Source: Dokdonella koreensis DS-123
Lineage (GTDB): Bacteria; Pseudomonadota; Gammaproteobacteria; Xanthomonadales; Rhodanobacteraceae
Length of the DNA stretch: 64,000 nt
Assembly (NCBI RefSeq): GCF_001632775.1
Contig: NZ_CP015249.1
Location: 1-64,000 of the forward strand
Reading direction: 5' to 3'
Every line of letters starts with the position of its first letter. The first letter of the stretch is position 1. The notes beneath the pieces are model-generated. The model did not search any database, had not been told where the DNA came from, and was given only the letters and a program-made list of their open reading frames with translations. The translations under genes were made by a program, and so were the position numbers. Of the stretch, positions 14,615-25,409 are shown piece after piece.

Positions 14615-15928
14615 TCAGAAGCCCAGCGCGAACATCGCGAAGGCGACCCCCAGGCCGAGCAGCGGCACGACCACCGTCATCGCGGCCATCGGGAAGTAGG
14701 CGGCCTTGTGCGTCTCGCCGCAGACGGCGCGGATCGTCGTGACGATGTAGCCGTTGTGCGGCATCGCATCGAGCGTGCCCGATGCCAGGGCGACCGAGCG
14801 GTGCAACTGCGAAGGATCGACGCCCTGCGGCAGGTAGAGCGGGGCGAGGATCGGCAGTGCGATGGCTTGCCCCCCGGACGCGCTGCCGGTCATCGCGGCG
14901 ATCGCGGCGACGGCGAACGCGGCATTGACGACACCGTGGCCAGGCAGGTGTGTGATCCAGTCGACCGCCAACGTGAAGCCGGGTACGCCCTTGGCGACCG
15001 CGCCGAAGCCGACCACCGCCGCCGTGTTGCCGATCGCGATCAGTGCGTCGGCGCTGCCGCTGGCGAGCGCGGCACCCGGCGCGCTCAGGTGGCGCCAGCC
15101 GACCACGGCGGTCAGCACGCAGCCGGCGAGCAGGGCCACGATCAGCGCCGAGGTGTGCAGGCGCTCGTGCAGCAGAAAGCTCAGGACCAGCACCGCCAGC
15201 AATGGCACCAATGACAGCAGCGGCGAGGGCAGCGTCTCGCGGCTGTCGACCGGGTCGCCTTCCCGCGGCTCGAAGCGCTCGCCGCGCGCGCGAGCCCGAC
15301 CGATCATCCAGTTGAGCCAGTACTGGCCGACGATCGCCATGACGATCGCCGCAGCCAGGCTGGCCTGCCAGGCGGCCCATGGCGAGGTGCCGAGGTATTT
15401 GATCGGGATCCAGTTCTGGATCTCCGGCGAGCCGGCCGCCGTCATCGTGATCGAGATCGAGCCGAAGCCGAGCGCGGCCGGGATGAAGCGGCGCGGCAGG
15501 TCGGCGGCGCGGAACAGGCTGAGCGCGGTCGGGTACACCGAGAAGGCGACCACGAACAGGCTGACGCCGCCGTAGGTCAGCACGATGCAGGCCACGACGA
15601 TCGCCAGCGCCGCGTGGCGCGGGCCGATCGTGCGCAGCACCCAGCGCGCGACCGCGTCGGCGGCGCCGGTGTCCTGCATCAGCTTGCCGAAGATGCAGCC
15701 GAACAGGAACATGAAGAACCAGCTCGCGATGAAGCCGCTGAAGCCCTGCATGTAGCTGCCGAGCGCGTCGGTGGCCGCCGGCTCGCCGTTGGCCGGCAGC
15801 AGCGGCAGGCCGCTCGCCAGCGCGACGACGGCGGCGCAGACCGGCGTGGCGATGAACAGGCTGACGCCACGCATCGCCATGGCGACGAGCAGCGCCAGGC
15901 CGGCCAGGAGGCCGAACAGACTCAGCAT
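14615..15928 (-). CDS. GntP-family permease (candidate 3-hydroxybutyrate or hydroxy-acid importer)
   Basis: A 437-residue integral membrane protein with 12 or more hydrophobic helices and GntP/CitM-like sequence (FGCIFGKLMQDTGAADAVA, GGVSLFVVAFSVYPTALSLF, GSASGGQAIALPILAPLY, ASGTLDAMPHNGYIVTTI). GntP proteins are proton symporters for gluconate and related hydroxy acids. The Pseudomonas 3-hydroxybutyrate permease HbuT belongs to the same superfamily. The ATG at 15928 faces the TonB-dependent receptor across a 189-bp divergent region. Placement beside two poly-3-hydroxybutyrate hydrolases suggests monomer uptake. The substrate is inference. Confidence 0.8.
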   Translation of the reverse strand: MLSLFGLLAGLALLVAMAMRGVSLFIATPVCAAVVALASGLPLLPANGEPAATDALGSYMQGFSGFIASWFFMFLFGCIFGKLMQDTGAADAVARWVLRTIGPRHAALAIVVACIVLTYGGVSLFVVAFSVYPTALSLFRAADLPRRFIPAALGFGSISITMTAAGSPEIQNWIPIKYLGTSPWAAWQASLAAAIVMAIVGQYWLNWMIGRARARGERFEPREGDPVDSRETLPSPLLSLVPLLAVLVLSFLLHERLHTSALIVALLAGCVLTAVVGWRHLSAPGAALASGSADALIAIGNTAAVVGFGAVAKGVPGFTLAVDWITHLPGHGVVNAAFAVAAIAAMTGSASGGQAIALPILAPLYLPQGVDPSQLHRSVALASGTLDAMPHNGYIVTTIRAVCGETHKAAYFPMAAMTVVVPLLGLGVAFAMFALGF

Positions 15929-15957: not shown

Positions 15958-15998
15958 AGTATCCGAAGCGGTGCCCGGCGCCGGCATTGTACGAAGGT
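15958..15998 (-). promoter_or_regulatory. Putative activator site and -10 element for the permease
   Basis: CATTGTACGAAGGT (15985-15998, plus strand) contains half of a 16-bp palindrome, TTGTAC-GAAG-GTACAA (15987-16002). On the minus strand GATACT (15963 to 15958) is a plausible -10 for the permease. A start near 15951 would centre the motif at about -40, the usual place for a class II activator. The same motif with two changes lies in the crbR/oligomer-hydrolase promoter region. The bound protein is inferred to be the NarL-type regulator of this locus. Confidence 0.55.
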
Positions 15999-16117
15999 AC
16001 AACTGCCCCGCGGCCCGGTGCGTTGCAGACTTCGCTGCGATCCGGCCCGCGTGCCGCGCCGCGGTGCGTGCGCGCCGCGGCCGAAACGACGACAACGCCA
16101 CGAAGCGAGGGGACTCC

Positions 16118-18361
16118 ATGAAGCGCAATCATCTGAGCCTGGCCGTCGGCCTGGTCCTGGGCCTGGCCGCCGCCGTGCCGCCGGCGGCGGCGCAGACCGC
16201 CGAACCCGCCGCGCCGGCGCAGGACGGCGAGATCGAACGCCTCGACGGCATCACCGTGACGGCGCGCCGCCGCGAGGAGAGCATCCAGAAGGTGCCGGTG
16301 GCGGTCAGTGCGTTCGGCGAGCAGGACCTGCAGCAGATGCAGGCGCAGAACATCGACAGCCTGCAAGGCTCGGTGCCGAACATGAACATCGTCCAGGGGC
16401 GCGGCTCGTCCTCGTCGGTCAACGTGTTCATCCGCGGCATCGGCCAGCCCGACGCGCTGCAGACCTTCGACCCGGGCGTGGGCATCTACGTCGACGACGT
16501 CTACTACTCGCGCATCCAGGGTGCGCTGTTCGGCCTCTACGACGTCGACCACATCGAAGTGCTGCGCGGCCCGCAGGGCACGCTGTACGGCAAGAACTCG
16601 ACCGGCGGCGCGATCAAGATCGTCACGCGCGAACCGGGCGAGACCACCGAGGGCAACGTCGAGCTGACCGTCGGCGACCACGGCCTGTTCGAGGCCAAGG
16701 CCTATGCGGCGATGCCGCTCACCGAGCACTGGGGCTTGAGCGCCGCGCTGATGAGCACCGGCAACGACGGCTTCGTGAAGGATCCCGACACCGGCAAGCG
16801 CTACAACCAGAACGACACCGAGGCGGTGCGCATCAAGCTGGTCGGGCGCCCGACCGATACCTTCAAGGCGGCCTTCACGCTCGACTACACGCACCAGGAC
16901 AACCCGCTGACGCTGGGCAATCCGCAGGCGCCGCTGATCCAGACCGACCTGGCGCTCGGGCCGCGCGTGCTGCGCGAGCCGGTGGGTGGCGAGTACGACT
17001 TCCGTACGCGCACCTCGTTCGGGCCGGACCAGGGCCAGAAGCTCAACCACAAGGGCCTGGCGGCCAACCTCGGCTGGGACCTCTCCGACAGTTGGTCGCT
17101 CAAGAGCATCACCGCGTACCGGCAGCTGGTGTCCAAGTCCTACATCGACATCGACGCGTCGGAGTTCTCGCTCGGCGACGTCTACGTCGGCATCGACCAG
17201 AACCAGTTCAGCCAGGAGCTGCAGGCGCAGTTCGACAACGGCGGCCCGGTGCAGGCCACCTACGGCGTCTACTTCCTGCGCGAGCACGTGCCTTCGACGC
17301 AGTACGCCTGGGCCGACGACCTCTACAGCGTGGCGACCGCGCCGGTGACGTTCCTGCGCACCATCGGCGACGACCTCACCACCAAGAGCTACGCCGCCTA
17401 CGGCCAGGTCAACTGGGAATTCGCCCCGTCCTGGACGCTCGGCGCGGGCCTGCGCTACACGCGCGAGCGCAAGGAGTACGACCGCACCACCTCCACCTTC
17501 TGGGGTCCGCTGCTGGCCAGCCTCGACGGCACCGTCGCCTTCGACGCCAGCAAGAGCTGGGACGCCTGGACGCCGTCACTGAGCCTGACCAAGGCGTTCT
17601 CGGACCGGCTGATGGGCTACGTCTCGGCCAACCGCGGCTTCAAGTCTGGCGGCTTCAACGGCCGCGCCAACGCCGCCGCCGAGGCGGCGCGGCCGGAGTT
17701 CGATCCGGAGTTCGTCTGGACCTATGAGCTGGGCCTCAAGTCCAGTTCGGCGGACGGGCGCCTGATCGGCAACGTCAGCGTGTTCCACAGTGAGTACAAG
17801 AACTTCCAGGCGCGCGTCAGCGGCGAGGAAGTGGGCAGCTTCCCGGTGCTCAACGCCGCCAAGCTGAAGATGGACGGTGTCGAGTTCGAGGGCATCGCGC
17901 TGATCGGCGAGGGCACGCGCCTGTCCGCGCAGATCGGCTGGATGGATGCACGCTACGCCTCGTTCGACGACCCGCGCGTGGCCAGCGCCCCGATCTACGC
18001 GAACCTGCACGACCATGTGCCGTTCTCGCCGGAATGGACCGGACGCATCGCTGCCAGCCACACCTTCAACCTCGCCACCGCGGGCAGCCTGACGGTCGGC
18101 GGCGACTACGCCTACCGCTCCAAGACCTGGCTCAGCGTGGACAATCGCGACGTGCTGGCGCAGAACGGCTTCGGCCTGGCCGGGCTCTACGGGATCTGGG
18201 ATTCGCCGAGCCTGAAGTGGCAGGTCCGCGGCGGCGTGCGCAACCTCACCGACAAGGTCTACAAGACCGATGCGCAGGAGTTCTCGAGCGTCGGCAACAT
18301 CCAGACCGCGTACTATGGCGTGCCGCGCAACTACTACCTGACCGCCCGCTATAGCTTCTGA
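16118..18361 (+). CDS. TonB-dependent outer-membrane receptor
   Basis: A 747-residue outer-membrane receptor. The start ATG at 16118 follows GCGAGGGG, and a signal peptide is visible (about 1-26, AVPPAAAQTA). A TonB-box-like and plug start follows (DGITVTARRREESIQKVPVA), then plug motifs (DDVYYSRIQGALFGLYDVDH, LRGPQGTLYGKNSTGGAIKI) and a beta-barrel ending in YSF, the expected aromatic C-terminus. It takes up a substrate with energy from TonB-ExbBD. The substrate is not shown by sequence. Its place 32 nt upstream of a lipoprotein PHB depolymerase suggests uptake of 3-hydroxybutyrate oligomers, and the two genes are probably co-transcribed. Confidence 0.9.
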   Translation: MKRNHLSLAVGLVLGLAAAVPPAAAQTAEPAAPAQDGEIERLDGITVTARRREESIQKVPVAVSAFGEQDLQQMQAQNIDSLQGSVPNMNIVQGRGSSSSVNVFIRGIGQPDALQTFDPGVGIYVDDVYYSRIQGALFGLYDVDHIEVLRGPQGTLYGKNSTGGAIKIVTREPGETTEGNVELTVGDHGLFEAKAYAAMPLTEHWGLSAALMSTGNDGFVKDPDTGKRYNQNDTEAVRIKLVGRPTDTFKAAFTLDYTHQDNPLTLGNPQAPLIQTDLALGPRVLREPVGGEYDFRTRTSFGPDQGQKLNHKGLAANLGWDLSDSWSLKSITAYRQLVSKSYIDIDASEFSLGDVYVGIDQNQFSQELQAQFDNGGPVQATYGVYFLREHVPSTQYAWADDLYSVATAPVTFLRTIGDDLTTKSYAAYGQVNWEFAPSWTLGAGLRYTRERKEYDRTTSTFWGPLLASLDGTVAFDASKSWDAWTPSLSLTKAFSDRLMGYVSANRGFKSGGFNGRANAAAEAARPEFDPEFVWTYELGLKSSSADGRLIGNVSVFHSEYKNFQARVSGEEVGSFPVLNAAKLKMDGVEFEGIALIGEGTRLSAQIGWMDARYASFDDPRVASAPIYANLHDHVPFSPEWTGRIAASHTFNLATAGSLTVGGDYAYRSKTWLSVDNRDVLAQNGFGLAGLYGIWDSPSLKWQVRGGVRNLTDKVYKTDAQEFSSVGNIQTAYYGVPRNYYLTARYSF

Positions 18362-18393
18362 TCGCGGCCGCGCTCATGAGGAAGGACCAGTCG

Positions 18394-19431
18394 ATGACGA
18401 TGCCCTTGCCCTGCCGCGCCGCCCTGCCGGCGGCCGGTGCGTTGCTGGCGGGCCTGCTGCTGGCCGCCTGCACGAAGGCGCCGGCGGCCGCCCTGCCCAA
18501 GTTCGCGGTCGATGCCGATCGCGTGATGGTGGCCGGTCTCTCCTCGGGGGCCTACATGGCCACCCAGGCGCACCTGGCCTTGTCCGATCGCATCCACGGC
18601 GCCGCGCTGGTGGCCGGCGGTCCCTACGGCTGTGCCGGCGGCAAGCTCGAAGCCGCGCTGTCCACCTGCATGAAGGGCGAGCCGGCGATCGACGTCGCCG
18701 CGCTGGCCGCGCGTGCGGCCGAGCGCGCGGCCAAGGGCGAGATCGCGCCGCTTTCCAATCTCGCCGGCGACCCGGTCTACGTGCTGCACGGCCGCCGCGA
18801 CGCCACGGTGGCCGAGCCGGTCGCCCGCGCCGGGGCGGCGTTCTACGAGCGGCTGCGCGCCGATCACGCGGACCTGGCCACGCTCAAGGTCGCCTGGGAC
18901 GGTGGCCGTGATTTCCCGCATCTGCTGCCGACCGCGCAAGGCACCGGCGGCTGCGAATCGGCCGCGCCCTACATCGGCAACTGCGGCTTCGATGCGGCCG
19001 GCGCGATCTTCAACGCGCTCTACGGCGCGGCGCCGCGTCCGGCGCCCGCCACGGCCGCCGGCTCGCTGCAGGCGTTCGACCAGCGCGTGTTCGCACCCGC
19101 CGGCAAGGCGACCCAGCTGGCCGATCAGGGCCGGCTCTACGTGCCCAAGGCCTGCGCGGACGGCGCGCGTTGCGGCGTGCTCGTCGCGCTGCACGGCTGC
19201 CAGCAGAACGTCGAGGCGGTCGGCGAGGCCTTCGTGCGCGATGCCGGCTTCAACCGCTGGGCCGACGCCTACGACGTGATCGTGCTGTACCCTCAGACGC
19301 ACGCCAGTCTGGCGCCGCTGAATCCGAAAGCATGCTGGGACTGGTGGGGCTATACGGGTGCCGACTACGACACGCGCGACGGGGCGCAGGTGGCGTGGCT
19401 GGCGAACCTGATCGACGGGCTGAGGCGCTAG
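18394..19431 (+). CDS. Lipoprotein poly(3-hydroxybutyrate) depolymerase, type 2 (circularly permuted) arrangement
   Basis: A 345-residue lipoprotein. The ATG at 18394 is preferred to 18376 because GGAAGGA sits 7 nt before it and it gives a clean signal peptide with lipobox LLAAC (Cys26). The esterase nucleophile lies early in GLSSGAY (Ser50), with candidate Asp136 (HGRRDATV) and His176 (DFPHLLP), while the oxyanion-type ALHGCQQ segment is near the C-terminus. This is the permuted order of type 2 extracellular PHB depolymerases such as that of Penicillium funiculosum. No separate substrate-binding domain is present. Likely anchored at the cell surface or in the periplasm, hydrolysing PHB to oligomers. 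Confidence 0.8.
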   Translation: MTMPLPCRAALPAAGALLAGLLLAACTKAPAAALPKFAVDADRVMVAGLSSGAYMATQAHLALSDRIHGAALVAGGPYGCAGGKLEAALSTCMKGEPAIDVAALAARAAERAAKGEIAPLSNLAGDPVYVLHGRRDATVAEPVARAGAAFYERLRADHADLATLKVAWDGGRDFPHLLPTAQGTGGCESAAPYIGNCGFDAAGAIFNALYGAAPRPAPATAAGSLQAFDQRVFAPAGKATQLADQGRLYVPKACADGARCGVLVALHGCQQNVEAVGEAFVRDAGFNRWADAYDVIVLYPQTHASLAPLNPKACWDWWGYTGADYDTRDGAQVAWLANLIDGLRR

Positions 19432-19486
19432 CGATCGCCTCGCCGGTGCGCGCCGCGGCACCGCCGGTGCGGTCCGGAACGGCCCG

Positions 19487-22400
19487 ATGCTGAGCGCCCT
19501 GGTCGTCGCGGCCAGCCTGGTCTGGCTCGGGTTGCTGTTCGGCGCGGCGGTCTGGGGCGAGCGCCATCCGGAGGGCTTCGCGCGGCGCTGGTCGTACGTC
19601 TATGCGCTTTCGCTGGCGGCCTACTGTACGTCCTGGACGTTCTACGGCACCGTCACCCAGGCGGCGCGCTCGGGCTGGTGGCTGCCGCCGACCTTCGTCG
19701 GCACGATCCTGCTGTACGTGTTCGGCTTCGGCGCGCTGCAGCGCCTGGTGCGCCTGGTGCAGGAAACGCACAGCACCTCGATCGCCGACCTGGTCGCCGC
19801 GCGCCTCGGCAAGGACTCCCGGCTGGCCGCCGCGATCACCCTGGTCGCGATCCTCGGCATCGTGCCGTACATCGCGCTGCAGCTGAAGGCGGTCGCGATG
19901 AGCTTCGGCCTGCTGACGCGCGCCAGCCCGCTGGAGGCACCGCCCTGGCAGGACAGCGCGCTCTACGTGGCGCTGGTGCTGGCCCTGTTCGCGATGCTGT
20001 TCGGCACCCGCAGCGTCAGCACGGCCGAGCACAACCGCGGCCTGGTGCTGGCGATCGCGCTGGAGTCGCTGCTCAAGCTCGGCGCGATGCTGGCGATCGG
20101 CGCCTGGGTGCTGCTCGGCTACGGCTGGCCGGCACCGCCGCCCGCGGCCACGACGACGGCGAGCGGTTTTCCGGGCCTGGTCGTGCTCGGCATCCTGGCC
20201 CTGTTCACGCTGCCGCACCTGTACCACGTCGGCGTCGCCGAATGCCGCGACGTGCGCCACCTGGCCACCGCCCGCTGGCTGTTCCCGCTGTACATGGGCC
20301 TGATCGCGCTGCCGCTGCTGCCGCTGGCGCGCGCCGGCGAGTCACGCCTGGGCGGGCTGGGCGTGCCCTCGGACCTCTACGTGCTGGCGCTGCCGCTGGC
20401 CGACGGCAACGGCGCGCTGGCACTGCTCGCGTTCCTGGGCGGTCTCAGCGCCGCGACCGGCATGGTGATCGTCGCGACGCTGGCGCTCAGCCTGATGATC
20501 GGCAACCACTGGCTGACGCCGCTGCTGGTGCGTGGTGCGTGGCGGCAGAACCGCGGCGACCTGCGCGCCAGCGTGCTGCGCCAGCGCCGCCTGGCGATCC
20601 TGATCGTGGTGCTGCTGGCCTGGATCTACAGCCGCGCGACCAGCGGCAGCGAGGCGCTGGCCGACATCGGCGCGCTGTCGTTCTCCGGCCTGGGCACGCT
20701 GGCGCCGGCGGTGCTGTTCGCGGTGCTGCGCCCGCAGACGCCGCCGCGCGCGATGTTGTGGGGGCTGGCGGCCGGCGTAGTGGTGTGGGCCTGGTGCCTG
20801 CTGGTGCCGACACTGGCCACGCCGGACTGGCTCGACGCCGGCCCGTTCGGCATCGGCTGGCTGGCGCCGGACCACCTGTTCGGCCTGTCCGGCTGGAGCC
20901 GGCTGACGCGCGCGGTCATGCTGAGCCTGCTGGTGGAGACGACGGTCACCCTGCTGCTGGCCGCGCGTGCCACCGGGCCGCAGCCGGTCGAGGCGGGCGA
21001 GCTGGACGTGGCGACCCTGCGCGGCCTGGGCTGGCGCTTCCTGGCGCCCGAGCGCGTGGACCTGCTGATCGGCGAGCCGCGCAGCGGCCTGGCCGATCCC
21101 GGCCAGGTCGAGCGGGTCGAGCGCGAGCTGGCCACGGTCTTCGGTGCCGCGTCGGCGCGCCTGCTGCTCGACGCCGCGCGCCGCGCGCGCGGCCGCGACC
21201 TGGACACCGTCGCGACGATCGTCGGCGAGGCCTCGCAGGCGCTGCGCTTCAACCAGCGCCTGCTGGAGGCGGCGCTGGAGAACATGACGCAGGGCATCAG
21301 CGTCGTCGACCGCGAGCTCAACCTGGTCGCCTGGAACGCCCGCTACGCGCAGCTGTTCGGTTTTCCCGCCGACCTGCTGCGGGTCGGCCGGCCGATCGCC
21401 ACGCTGGCCGCGCATGCGCTGCGATCGGAAGGGCATGACGAGGCGCGGATCGCGCGGATGGTGGTGCGGCGGCTCGATCACATGCGCGCCGGTACGCCGC
21501 TGCTGTCCGAACGGCGCTTTCCGGACGGCAGCCTGATCGAGATCCGCGGCAACCCGATGCCCGGCGGCGGCTTCGTCGCCACCTTCACCGACGTCACCGC
21601 GTTCCGGCAGGCCGAGGCCGACCTCAAGCAGGTGGCCGAGCACCTCGAGCAGCGCGTGGCCGATCGTACCGCCGAGCTGGCGCGGGCCAGCGCGGCGGCC
21701 GAGCAGGCCAACCAGGCCAAGACGCGCCTGCTGGCGGCAGTCAGCCACGACTTGGCGCAGCCGCTCAATGCGGCGCACCTGTTCGTGCATGCGCTGGTGC
21801 AGCGCCTGGCGCATCCGGAGTACCGCGAGGCGCTCGGTCACATCGACGGCGCGCTGGGCTCGGCCGAGGAACTGCTGGCTGGCCTGCTGGACGTCTCGCG
21901 GCTGGACGCCGGCGGCCTGGTGCCGGCCCGGCAATCCTTCCGCGTCGACACGCTGCTGCGCGGCCTGGCGGCGGAGTTCGGTGTCCTGGCGCAACAGAAA
22001 GGCCTGCGCCTGGCCTATGTCGCCTCGTCGGCCTGGCTCGACACCGATCCGCAGCTGCTGCGGCGCGTGCTGCAGAACTTCCTCGCCAATGCGGTGCGCT
22101 ACACACCGTACGGCCGCATCGTGATCGGCGGCCGCCGGCGCGGCGACCGGCTGCGCATCGAGATCTGGGACAGCGGGCCGGGCATCGCCGCCGCCGATCG
22201 CACGGTGATCTTCGAGGAGTTCCGCCGCCTGGGCCGCGACGGCCAGGGCCTGGGCCTGGGCCTGTCGATCGCCGAGCGCATCGCGCGCCTGCTCGGCCTG
22301 CCCTTGAGCCTGCGCTCCTGGCCGGGACGCGGCAGCGTGTTCGCCATCGACGTGCCGTTCGGGCAGCCCCAGCCGCAAGCACCCGCCGCCGCGCCGCCAC

Positions 22401-22771
22401 CCCCGGCGCAGGCGCTGCGCGGCCGCGTGCTGGTGGTCGACAACGACGCCGCCGTGCGGGCGGCGATGACCGAGCTGCTGGCCGGCTGGCAGTTCCAGGT
22501 GCTGGCGGCGGCCGACGCGGACGAGGCCGCGCGGTTGTGCGCGAGCGGGTGGCCGGACCTGCTGGTGGTCGATTTCCACCTCGATGCGGGCTCGACCGGG
22601 CTGCAACTGCGCGAGGCCCTGCCCGCCCCCGTGCGTGCGCGGCCGTGCATCGTGGTCACGGCCGACCACGGCGAGGCGGTGCGCGCCGCGGTCGCCGCGA
22701 CCGGCTGCCACCTGCTCTACAAGCCGCTCAAGCCGCTGGCGCTGAAGTCGCTGATGGCGCGCCTGCTGTGA
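19487..22771 (+). CDS. CrbS-like hybrid histidine kinase with N-terminal sodium:solute-symporter domain
   Basis: A 1094-residue protein. An SLC5/SSS transporter-like membrane domain (about 1-500, 12-13 helices) is followed by a linker, a PAS domain (about 597-710, MTQGISVVDRELNLVAWNAR), a HisKA domain with H-box His754 (SHDLAQPLN), an HATPase_c domain (LQNFLANAVRYTPYG, DSGPGIAAADR, GLGLGLSIAERI) and a C-terminal receiver with phospho-acceptor Asp1029 (LLVVDFHLD). This is the layout of CrbS/MxtR/ErcS kinases, which in Vibrio and Pseudomonas control acetate or alcohol scavenging with a NarL-type regulator. Such a regulator is encoded convergently 38 bp away. It probably senses a small acid transported or bound by the SSS domain. 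Confidence 0.88.
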   Translation: MLSALVVAASLVWLGLLFGAAVWGERHPEGFARRWSYVYALSLAAYCTSWTFYGTVTQAARSGWWLPPTFVGTILLYVFGFGALQRLVRLVQETHSTSIADLVAARLGKDSRLAAAITLVAILGIVPYIALQLKAVAMSFGLLTRASPLEAPPWQDSALYVALVLALFAMLFGTRSVSTAEHNRGLVLAIALESLLKLGAMLAIGAWVLLGYGWPAPPPAATTTASGFPGLVVLGILALFTLPHLYHVGVAECRDVRHLATARWLFPLYMGLIALPLLPLARAGESRLGGLGVPSDLYVLALPLADGNGALALLAFLGGLSAATGMVIVATLALSLMIGNHWLTPLLVRGAWRQNRGDLRASVLRQRRLAILIVVLLAWIYSRATSGSEALADIGALSFSGLGTLAPAVLFAVLRPQTPPRAMLWGLAAGVVVWAWCLLVPTLATPDWLDAGPFGIGWLAPDHLFGLSGWSRLTRAVMLSLLVETTVTLLLAARATGPQPVEAGELDVATLRGLGWRFLAPERVDLLIGEPRSGLADPGQVERVERELATVFGAASARLLLDAARRARGRDLDTVATIVGEASQALRFNQRLLEAALENMTQGISVVDRELNLVAWNARYAQLFGFPADLLRVGRPIATLAAHALRSEGHDEARIARMVVRRLDHMRAGTPLLSERRFPDGSLIEIRGNPMPGGGFVATFTDVTAFRQAEADLKQVAEHLEQRVADRTAELARASAAAEQANQAKTRLLAAVSHDLAQPLNAAHLFVHALVQRLAHPEYREALGHIDGALGSAEELLAGLLDVSRLDAGGLVPARQSFRVDTLLRGLAAEFGVLAQQKGLRLAYVASSAWLDTDPQLLRRVLQNFLANAVRYTPYGRIVIGGRRRGDRLRIEIWDSGPGIAAADRTVIFEEFRRLGRDGQGLGLGLSIAERIARLLGLPLSLRSWPGRGSVFAIDVPFGQPQPQAPAAAPPPPAQALRGRVLVVDNDAAVRAAMTELLAGWQFQVLAAADADEAARLCASGWPDLLVVDFHLDAGSTGLQLREALPAPVRARPCIVVTADHGEAVRAAVAATGCHLLYKPLKPLALKSLMARLL

Positions 22772-22773
22772 GG

Positions 22774-22803
22774 CCGCCGTACGCGGCCGCTGCCGCGCGG
22801 CGG
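22774..22803. terminator. GC-rich hairpin between convergent kinase and regulator genes
   Basis: The 38-bp space between the two stop codons holds inverted repeats (CCGCCG at 22774-22779 with CGGCGG at 22798-22803, and an inner GCGGCCGC palindrome). Possibly a shared terminator; there is no T-tract. Confidence 0.35.
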
Positions 22804-22809
22804 TGGCTG

Positions 22810-23484
22810 TCAGGCACCGGCGGCCGGATCGTCGTGCTCGCGCGCGGTCAGCTGCAGCGTGCTCAGCAGCACGCCGGCCTGCGTGCGGTTGCGCACGCCC
22901 AGCTTCTCGAAGATCGCGGTGACGTGCGCCTTCACGGTGCGTTCCTGGATCGCCAGCGCAGCGGCGATCTGCTTGTTGAGCCGCCCCTGCGCGACCAGGG
23001 CCAGCACACGGAACTGCTGCGGACTCAAGGTATTGAGCCGGGTCGCCAGTGTGCCGTCGCCGGCATCGGTGCCGGTCGCGGCGACGTCCGCGCGCCGCTC
23101 GGGCGGAATCCAGGTCTGGCAGGCGAGGATCGCGCGCAGGGCTGTCTGCAGGTCCTCCAGACCGGCGCGCTTGGCGATGAAGCCGGCCGCGCCGTAGGCG
23201 AGCGCACGGCGGATCGTGTCCGGCTCGTCGTGGGCCGAGACCATCGCGACGGCGACGGCCGGGAACTCGGCGCGCAGCGACGCCAGGCCCATCAGGCCGT
23301 GGTTGCCGGGCATGTGCAGGTCGAGCAGGGCCAGGTCGGTGTCCGGATGCTCGGCCAGCTGCGCGCGCGCGGCATCCAGGTCGTCGGCCTCGGTGATCCG
23401 CACGCCGGTGTCGATGCCGGCCACCGCCTGCCGCAGCGCCAGCCGGAACAGCGGATGGTCGTCGGCGATCAGCACCTTGAGCAT
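22810..23484 (-). CDS. NarL/LuxR-type response regulator (CrbR-like)
   Basis: A 224-residue response regulator. The receiver domain (1-120) has the acidic pair DD near residue 8, phospho-acceptor Asp55 (LALLDLHMPG) and Lys in FIAKRAG. The C-terminal GerE/LuxR helix-turn-helix (about 155-210) reads LSPQQFRVLALVAQGRLNKQ and TVKAHVTAIFEKLGVRNRTQA. The ATG at 23484 is chosen because the receiver starts there with MLKVLIADDH. Convergent with the hybrid kinase, it is the obvious partner, as CrbR/ErdR is for CrbS/MxtR. It should activate genes for acetate or 3-hydroxybutyrate use. A TATGCT -10-like hexamer (23521-23516) precedes it. Confidence 0.88.
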   Translation of the reverse strand: MLKVLIADDHPLFRLALRQAVAGIDTGVRITEADDLDAARAQLAEHPDTDLALLDLHMPGNHGLMGLASLRAEFPAVAVAMVSAHDEPDTIRRALAYGAAGFIAKRAGLEDLQTALRAILACQTWIPPERRADVAATGTDAGDGTLATRLNTLSPQQFRVLALVAQGRLNKQIAAALAIQERTVKAHVTAIFEKLGVRNRTQAGVLLSTLQLTAREHDDPAAGA

Positions 23485-23536
23485 CGAGCCACCCTGGTGA
23501 CGGAGACGGTTCCGCAGCATACCGCGCAGGGCTGCG

Positions 23537-23583
23537 ACTTTCGTACGATGGCGCGGGCGGCACCGGCACGTATCGTAGACCGA
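23537..23583 (+). promoter_or_regulatory. Putative activator site and leaderless promoter of the oligomer hydrolase
   Basis: The reverse complement of 23537-23550 is CATCGTACGAAAGT, matching the permease-side motif at 12 of 14 positions. TATCGT (23571-23576) is a possible -10, and the ATG at 23583 would lie about 7 nt beyond it, so the mRNA may be leaderless. The motif would then centre at about -40. The same site lies about 53 nt upstream of the crbR-like gene on the other strand and may also serve it. Confidence 0.55.
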
Positions 23584-25409
23584 TGCCGCCACGTTCTTGT
23601 CTGTTGCTTGTGTCGCTCCTGCTGCTCGGCGCCTGCGCCGCGCCGGCGCGGCGCGAACGTCCGCCTTCGCCGATGACCGACTTCCTTGCCAGCCCGATCC
23701 GCGAGACGCGCCATGCCGGCGGCGACGACCTGCTGACCGCGGGCCTGGGCCTGGCCGGGTTGCGCGGCGCGCCGGTCGCGTTCGCCGACCCGGAGCGGCC
23801 CACGCCGGAGGAGCTGCGGCGGCGTGCGATCCAGGTCAGCTGGAAGGGCATCGCCGACCTCGGGCCGCTCGGCGGCTACGGCACGCTGTACGGCAGCACG
23901 GCGACGGTGACCGGTCGCGAGTTCTCGGCATTCGCGCGCCTGCCCGGTGCGCATTCGCCGCACCGCGTGCTGGTGCAGGTGCCGGACGCGTTCGATGCGT
24001 CGGCACGCTGCCTGGTCGTGACCGCCTCGTCCGGTTCGCGCGGCATCTACGGCGCGATCGCATTGGCCGGCGCGGCCGGCCTGCCGCGCGGCTGCGCCGT
24101 GGCCTACACCGACAAGGGCACCGGCAGCGGCTACTTCGACCCGGCCACGCGCAGCGGCGTGCAGCTGGACGGCACGCGCGCCGCGGCCGGCACGGCGCTG
24201 CTGGAGTTCGAACCGGCGGCCGACGTTCCCAGCGACGCGGGGATCGCGGTCAAGCATGCCCATTCGGGCGACAACCCCGAGGCCGACTGGGGCCGGCACC
24301 TGCTGCAGGCGGCGCGCTTCGGCCTGGCGATGCTCGACCGCGCGCATCCGGACCAGGCGCCGTTCACGCCGGCCAATACGCGCATCGTCGCGATCGGCCT
24401 GTCCAACGGCGGCGGCGCGGTGCTGCGTGCGGCCGGGATCGACGACGGCCTGCTCGACGCGGCGATCGCGCTGGCGCCCAACATCGCCACGCCGGGCCGG
24501 GGCCGCGCGCTCTACGACTACGCGACCGAGGCGGCGCTGTGGCTGCCGTGCGCCCTGCTCGATCCGCGCTTCGACCCGGTGCCGATGGCGCGCGAGGCCG
24601 ATGGCAGCGCGCCGGCCGCCGGCCGTGCCCGTTGTGCGTCGCTGCAGGCGCACGGCCTGCCCGGCAGTGCCGCGCCGGCCGCCACGGCGCTGGCGCAGCT
24701 GCGGGCCGCCGGCTGGTCCGACGCGGCGCTGGCGACCGCCGCGAGTACCACGCGCCTGGACCTGTGGCGCGCGGTAGCCGCGACCTATGCCTCGGGCTAC
24801 CTGCGGGCGCCGGCCGGCCCGATGCCGTGCGGCTTCGGCTTCAGCGGCCACGATGCGCAGGGGCGGCCGGGCGTCGTCTCCGAGGCGGTGCGCGCGGCAT
24901 GGTGGGCGGACGCCAGCGGCATTCCGCCCGGTGCCGGCGTGCTGCTGACCGCGCCCGCCGCGACCGGTGAGGATCCGGCCTGGCCCGGCCTGGCCTGCCT
25001 GCGCGGCCTGTGGACCGGCACCGATGCCCCGGCGACGCGCCTGCGCGCGGCGGTCGAGGCGACCCGCGCCGCGCTGCCGCGTCGCGACCTGCCGGTCGTG
25101 GTCATCCACGGCGAAGCGGACGGGCTGGTGCCGATGGCGTTCAGTGCCGAGCCGTACGTGGAATGGCTGCGCGCCCACGATCGCACGCCCACCTGGTGGC
25201 CGATCGCCCACGGCCAGCATTTCGATGCGTTCCTCGCCCTGCCCGGCTTCGGCGATCGCTACGTGCCGTTGCTGGCCTATGGCTATGCCGCATTCGACAC
25301 GGTACTGGACGCGCTGCGCAGCGGCGGGCCACTGCGCTTGCCACCGGCCCCGCAACCACGCGCACGCGGCAACGGTGCGCTGGAAGCGGCACATCTGGGC
25401 CTGCGCTGA
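23583..25409 (+). CDS. Lipoprotein D-(-)-3-hydroxybutyrate oligomer hydrolase
   Basis: A 608-residue protein of the 3HB-oligomer hydrolase family (close to the family's usual length of about 600-700), with a short lipoprotein signal (LLLLGAC, Cys18). Conserved features include SWKGIADLGPLGGYGTLYG, VTASSGSRGIYGAI, the nucleophile segment IGLSNGGG (Ser274) and HGEADGLVP near the C-terminus. The family cleaves 3-hydroxybutyrate dimers and oligomers released from PHB to monomers. The lipobox suggests it acts outside the cytoplasm, next to the PHB depolymerase and receptor encoded upstream. It is divergent from the regulator gene and has a candidate regulator site 33 nt before its ATG. Confidence 0.88.
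   Translation: MPPRSCLLLVSLLLLGACAAPARRERPPSPMTDFLASPIRETRHAGGDDLLTAGLGLAGLRGAPVAFADPERPTPEELRRRAIQVSWKGIADLGPLGGYGTLYGSTATVTGREFSAFARLPGAHSPHRVLVQVPDAFDASARCLVVTASSGSRGIYGAIALAGAAGLPRGCAVAYTDKGTGSGYFDPATRSGVQLDGTRAAAGTALLEFEPAADVPSDAGIAVKHAHSGDNPEADWGRHLLQAARFGLAMLDRAHPDQAPFTPANTRIVAIGLSNGGGAVLRAAGIDDGLLDAAIALAPNIATPGRGRALYDYATEAALWLPCALLDPRFDPVPMAREADGSAPAAGRARCASLQAHGLPGSAAPAATALAQLRAAGWSDAALATAASTTRLDLWRAVAATYASGYLRAPAGPMPCGFGFSGHDAQGRPGVVSEAVRAAWWADASGIPPGAGVLLTAPAATGEDPAWPGLACLRGLWTGTDAPATRLRAAVEATRAALPRRDLPVVVIHGEADGLVPMAFSAEPYVEWLRAHDRTPTWWPIAHGQHFDAFLALPGFGDRYVPLLAYGYAAFDTVLDALRSGGPLRLPPAPQPRARGNGALEAAHLGLR

Follow-up and report, generated by a model that had tools for sequence, protein, structure and literature searches.

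The closest described relatives of the system reported here are the CrbS/CrbR (MxtR/ErdR) two-component systems, in which a hybrid kinase of SLC5-STAC-PAS architecture is paired with a NarL-type response regulator (PMC5715377, PMC8402216, PMC9927353). In Pseudomonas fluorescens, CrbR-dependent activation requires the ACTU motif, an element found in 91 of 112 promoters across 31 species and located at -52 to -36 of the acs promoter (example, TACTACCATCGTCGAAT; Sepulveda and Lupas, PMC5715377). ErdR of Pseudomonas aeruginosa bound 13/15 promoters in electrophoretic mobility shift assays (PMC9927353), and in Pseudomonas putida acsA-I, unlike other targets, showed no binding (PMC8402216). A further SLC5/STAC two-component system, the pyruvate system RpuS/RpuR of Sinorhizobium fredii, controls a short-acid transporter operon via a promoter motif (PMC9100948). 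Here we describe a 64,000-nucleotide stretch of the Dokdonella koreensis DS-123 chromosome (NZ_CP015249.1, positions 1 to 64,000; hereafter, the window), in which two inverted repeats lie within a block of genes for the use of external polyhydroxybutyrate (PHB). We consider it likely that the two sites are the operators of the window's own CrbS/CrbR-type system, a duplicate of the acetate CrbSR system whose role has shifted to the use of external PHB and PHB oligomers. The window system resembles CrbS/CrbR in its pair of proteins; unlike CrbS/CrbR, its targets serve PHB and oligomer use rather than acs or actP. Like RpuS/RpuR it is an SLC5/STAC two-component system, and it differs in organism group, target (mctP in S. 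fredii), and gene layout (an operon in S. fredii; PMC9100948).

The preliminary description of this DNA had reported a near-identical 14-bp motif in two divergent promoter regions. Both copies lie where it placed them, CATTGTACGAAGGT at 15985-15998 (+) and CATCGTACGAAAGT at 23537-23550 (-), and agree at 12/14 positions. The shared motif is real, but the 14-mer is too short, being a fragment of a 16-bp dyad in which 4 bp separate the two half-sites. Like ACTU, the dyad is an inverted repeat with an AC-N4-GT core and a 4-bp spacer, centered ~43-44 nt before the start, and site 1 read in the permease direction (TTGTACCTTCGTACAAT) is identical to the acs ACTU example at 12/17 letters. Unlike ACTU, the window-type half-site is TGTAC, not TCGAC. 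A search of the whole genome (4,446,619 bp) found exact matches to CATYGTACGAARGT at two places, solely these two sites, and allowing up to two mismatches returned 26 places compared to 8 for the reversed pattern. Site 1 is the sole match without mismatch to TTGTACNNNNGTACAA in the genome. At one mismatch, TGKACYWWSGTMCA gave 42 genome-wide matches (31 for the control) and TCKACYWWNGTMGA gave 59 (24 for the control), while a loose form of the dyad with three mismatches was uninformative (179 places per strand vs. 292 for the reversed control). Two other candidates were rejected: the other exact match to TGKACYWWSGTMCA, at 4222240, lies inside a long coding frame, and a one-mismatch site at 1869049 is intergenic but neither expected -10 box was seen there by eye. 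The features of the block, in order, are:

14615..15928, minus strand: CitMHS/GntP-type permease, its substrate predicted and probably 3-hydroxybutyrate or a like acid
15958..15963, minus strand: GATACT, the permease promoter's predicted -10 box (23 nt from the dyad)
15987..16002, no strand: site 1, perfect dyad TTGTAC-GAAG-GTACAA, conserved in relatives; proposed operator of both divergent promoters
16026..16031, plus strand: predicted -10 box of the receptor promoter, CAGACT (weak), 23 nt from the dyad
16118..18361, plus strand: TonB-dependent receptor
18376..19431, plus strand: extracellular type 2 short-chain polyhydroxyalkanoate (PHB) depolymerase (NF050059, 324.2 bits vs. a cut-off of 280)
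19487..22771, plus strand: CrbS-type hybrid histidine kinase with SLC5-STAC, PAS, HisKA, HATPase, and receiver parts
22810..23484, minus strand: NarL-family response regulator of the CrbR/ErdR type, proposed to bind at both sites
23533..23548, plus strand: site 2, TGCGAC-TTTC-GTACGA, an imperfect dyad and the proposed oligomer-hydrolase operator
23571..23576, plus strand: TATCGT, the hydrolase promoter's predicted -10 box (22 nt from the dyad), with the ATG 6 nt further
23583..25409, plus strand: 3-hydroxybutyrate-oligomer hydrolase (PF10605, 382.5 bits), mRNA predicted to be leaderless

The receptor, depolymerase, and kinase genes stand in a row on the plus strand, separated by 14 and 55 bp.

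Most of the argument rests on the recurrence of the dyad at the corresponding promoters of relatives. A de novo motif search of 17 permease/receptor intergenic regions (the window and 16 relatives' genomes) returned TTGTACCTTcGTACARTG as its best motif in 16/17, locus L117 being the exception, with a log-likelihood (LL) of 247.5 compared to 56.8-65.2 in four shuffles. The dyad was also recovered de novo from 27/27 further permease/receptor regions (26 named records and the window; LL 407.7 vs. 63.4 in one shuffle) and from 47/48 oligomer-hydrolase promoter regions (the window plus 47 named records; missing from L202; LL 586.2 vs. 89.1 shuffled), among which the window's site 2 is the weakest hydrolase-promoter site (12.8 bits). 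Since the window is in both permease/receptor lists and record L201 is the same contig as L113, these amount to 41 distinct permease/receptor regions with the site. For the information, permease/receptor spacing, and matrix counts given here, sites were picked with a consensus that already contained the invariant bases, and L117 was kept. In the anchored alignment (42 rows, L117 doubtful), site columns held 1.55 bits each compared to 0.46 and 0.43 in the flanks. The exact 18-mer CAYTGTMCGAAGGTACRA is present in 75/398 genomes of the order, in single copy each (reversed control, 0), and stands between permease and receptor at all 30 loci inspected, these being the first 30 of the 75 matches, all from the window's own family and including the window. 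Motif searches of the DNA immediately preceding the regulator gene had a mixed outcome, since in many cases the hydrolase does not lie next to it. In another order, Alteromonas flava carries a similar block (identities of 59% for the permease, 29% for the receptor, 40% for the depolymerase, 37% for the kinase, and 49% for the regulator), and its permease/receptor intergenic region holds a perfect dyad, TAGTAC-CATC-GTACTA.

The sites also hold a constant position relative to predicted promoters. GATACT (15963-15958) and TATCGT (23571-23576), earlier proposed as -10 elements, are both present in the sequence, and their first bases are 31.5 and 30.5 nt away from the respective dyad centers. Taking the first -10 base as -12, the centers fall at about -43.5 (site 1) and -42.5 (site 2), in agreement with the earlier placement near -40. 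On the permease side, GATACT begins exactly 23 nt from the dyad in 21/44 rows and GACACT in 6 (the window is counted twice in this set); on the receptor side, a TANNCT-like box begins at 23 nt in many relatives, and information peaks are seen on both sides. The 23-nt spacing in both directions suggests two divergent promoters placed symmetrically around one dyad, an arrangement that distinguishes the window block from CrbS/CrbR. Upstream of the hydrolase, TANNNT begins 20-24 nt from the dyad in 42/48 rows, and the ATG follows 6 nt after the -10 box in 23 of 31 measurable rows; therefore, the hydrolase transcript is probably leaderless. Site 2 had been assigned to the divergence between regulator and hydrolase. 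Its place in the hydrolase promoter is upheld, but its assignment to the regulator is not, since the site tracks the hydrolase: the two genes are >400 bp apart in 18/37 rows scoring at least 12 of 16, which indicates that site 2 belongs to the hydrolase. Eleven of the 48 hydrolase rows score below 12 of 16 and are excluded from the counts of 34/37 and 18/37, while 42/48 uses all rows. A -10-like hexamer in the regulator's direction, TATGCT (23517-23522, minus strand), lies 10 bp from site 2 and was not seen by eye in most relatives; were it used, the regulator when bound would cover part of its own promoter, with repression as a possible outcome.

Within the kinase family, PAS_7, HisKA, and HATPase domains occur in 15/15 members and Response_reg in 14/15. 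Although a Pfam scan of the N-terminal half of the kinase found no transporter family, a profile of residues 7-556 from 15 kinases matched PDB 10ED at E 1.9e-83, the entry being the SLC5-STAC structure of CbrA (PMC13022988). In this half the window kinase is thus homologous to CbrA; the CbrA/CbrB system, which serves histidine use and carbon balance, differs in that the window's regulator is NarL-type and its kinase has a receiver domain. CbrB is a sigma-54 regulator of the NtrC type. The window regulator has a NarL-type receiver and a GerE domain, and its best NCBIfam family is ErdR (NF041830), with a score of 218.5 bits that is under the 390-bit cut-off and marks it as a paralogue, not ErdR proper. 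Since the kinase matches the SLC5-STAC profile and the regulator's best family is ErdR, the pair is of the CrbS/CrbR type; its genes are adjacent and convergent, as reported for crbS/crbR of S. fredii (PMC9100948). As a relative of ErdR/CrbR, whose family acts through such an inverted repeat, the NarL-type regulator favored in the preliminary description remains the candidate binder. It is not the copy adjoining acs. That position is held by another gene (88816-89442; acs at 89593-91461), an acetate-type CrbR 46% identical to the window regulator, and the genome also encodes a second full-length kinase (4406909-4410355) 47% identical to that of the window. A regulator tree built from 63 sequences, almost all of them from relatives, splits the acs-side and PHB-side copies on one branch (support 98/86). 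Thus, unlike CrbR, the window regulator falls in a clade of its own beside the acs-side copies and below the ErdR cut-off.

The same motif had been expected upstream of acs, but acs carries a sister version of it, with TCGAC half-sites where the PHB sites have TGTAC. Among 30 acs upstream regions from relatives and the window (the 30 best-scoring of 57 genomes with a match), two boxes were found, one CTATTCGCCNNTGGTCGA-like (>19 bits in 25/30) and one TCGACCAAAGTCGAA-like (score at least 11 of 16 in 26/30), with LL of 299.0 and 284.8 compared to 74.8-78.6 in two shuffles each. The third base of the half-site is G in 84/84 PHB half-sites (a biased picker) and C in 42/52 acs half-sites; in the unbiased lists, read by eye and leaving out L117, it is G in both half-sites of all 41 distinct regions. 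The fourth base is T in 79/84 PHB and G in 52/52 acs half-sites. The canonical third-base C of ACTU, found in 5/8 half-sites of four verified P. fluorescens sites (PMC5715377, Table 4, by eye), is thus absent from the PHB box. Leave-one-out matrices sorted 42/42 PHB sites (one of them, L117, doubtful) and 25/26 acs sites correctly.

The regulators differ in parallel where the recognition helix begins. Members of the PHB clade carry Q180 in 34/38 cases and R182 in 37/38 (QER type), whereas the acs clade has S180 in 24/25 and A182 in 25/25 (SEA type). Over a set of 80 loci, read by eye, R182 occurs in 54/54 (L160-L213) and SEA in 23/23 recorded as Pseudomonas or Pantoea, the other three being two Stenotrophomonas maltophilia loci with QLR and Alteromonas with SES. 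In the alignment, R182 falls three residues before K188 of NarL, a residue that, with V189 and K192, contacts bases. R182 as the sole specificity determinant was set aside, being countered by Alteromonas, which has SES yet a GTAC-type site. A part for residues 180 and 182 in specificity is suggested by one duplication, and Alteromonas defies the simple rule. As a separate observation, both S. maltophilia loci (L219, L226), with variant QLR regulators, have CTGGACCTAGGTCCAC, a palindrome of the GGAC type, on the upstream side of the receptor gene. It is conceivable, and we propose it tentatively at somewhat less than even chances, that the duplicated acetate system became a switch dedicated to PHB scavenging by changing both the box (C to G at the third position of either half-site) and the first residues of the recognition helix (S180-x-A182 vs. 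Q180-x-R182), insulating two parallel regulons in one cell, with a similar switch extending beyond the order, to Alteromonas.

The presence of the site follows that of the PHB-side regulator. In all 75 site-bearing genomes the window regulator has a close relative (the best match having E of 6.4e-67 or stronger), and the 18-mer occurs in 0/196 genomes having only a weaker relative or none. The split into 202 and 196 genomes was drawn at a best E-value of 1e-58, set after viewing the first 60 genomes, and since the 398 genomes are related, the Fisher value for this association is not a true probability. In genomes G117 and G255, site and regulator share a contig but are separated by 145 and 69 kb, respectively. 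Several results weigh against the proposal. The exact 18-mer is lacking from 127/202 genomes with a close regulator (looser forms uncounted), and in several regulator-bearing genomes the 20 kb examined held neither a PHB block nor a site. The co-occurrence is also partly built in because site and regulator usually neighbor each other. Within the window, the receptor -10 box (CAGACT) is weak, and site 2 is a hybrid, scoring 7.4 bits with the acs matrix and 1.9 bits with the PHB matrix. Finally, deletion of erdR in P. aeruginosa raised most tested targets, which its authors read as repression (PMC9927353). Four loci of the window's genus (L100, L105, L107, L109) keep a PHB-clade regulator with the PHB block absent nearby, and the sole match of the site scan among them is in L105 (13.3 bits).

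These data bear on whether the acetate-type CrbR paralogue (88816-89442), rather than or together with the window regulator, binds the sites as part of one acetate/PHB regulon. The better fit of site 2 to the acs matrix points that way, as does the likeness of the two proteins, which besides their overall identity share nearly all of the remaining recognition helix, including K185, A186, and H187. We nonetheless regard this as unlikely, since PHB and acs operators differ consistently across the sets sorted above and since the site tracks the PHB-side regulator, being absent from every genome with only weaker relatives.

In the reading that we favor, with the window regulator as the binder, events would run as follows. 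An active SLC5-STAC kinase, its signal perhaps 3-hydroxybutyrate or a related acid, would phosphorylate the NarL-type regulator, a dimer of which would bind the dyad ~43 nt upstream of the start and act by class II activation. At site 1, one dimer could serve two symmetric divergent promoters, that of the permease and that of the receptor-depolymerase-kinase unit, and since the kinase gene lies in this unit, the kinase would probably be under positive feedback. At site 2, a dimer would drive the leaderless hydrolase mRNA. It is quite improbable, in our judgment, that the window regulator binds these sites but represses, or that an unrelated factor binds the dyad. The erdR deletion result from P. 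aeruginosa lends this some credence, as the sign of regulation could differ here, but the dyad stands just upstream of -35 with fixed -10 distances on both sides, as in the CrbR-activated acs promoter, and has the form of the CrbR family motif. A chance likeness of two short words has next to nothing in its favor: with up to three mismatches the window holds no excess of matches (3 vs. 5.45 expected), a poor test because the pattern was derived from the two sites themselves, and the idea is already refuted by the recurrence of the dyad at corresponding promoters in different families of the order.

The shared motif is best described as the operator of a CrbSR paralogue dedicated to PHB. In the open-licence literature, judged by titles and abstract starts and with subscription papers mostly outside it, no link of CrbR/ErdR to PHB was found, nor, among the matches listed, a two-component system for the oligomer hydrolase. 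The window system offers a candidate regulator, operator, and signal, all testable, for how environmental bacteria switch on the use of a biodegradable plastic. It also provides two naturally paired, paralogous response regulators whose operators are aligned across many species, in which the evolution of DNA specificity and insulation after duplication can be studied.

Two observations concern the acs side. Between acs and a divergent porin-like gene (G000:C1:91596-91628) are two tandem ACTU-like boxes, TGCGACCAAAGTCGTA and CTATTCGCCTATGGTCGA, which are both conserved in relatives and may serve one gene each. Elsewhere, a CGAC-type dyad, TTCGACCAAAGTCCAA (845063-845078), precedes by 60 bp a gene for an acs-like acyl-CoA synthetase (start 845138), in which the acs-side regulator probably has a second target.

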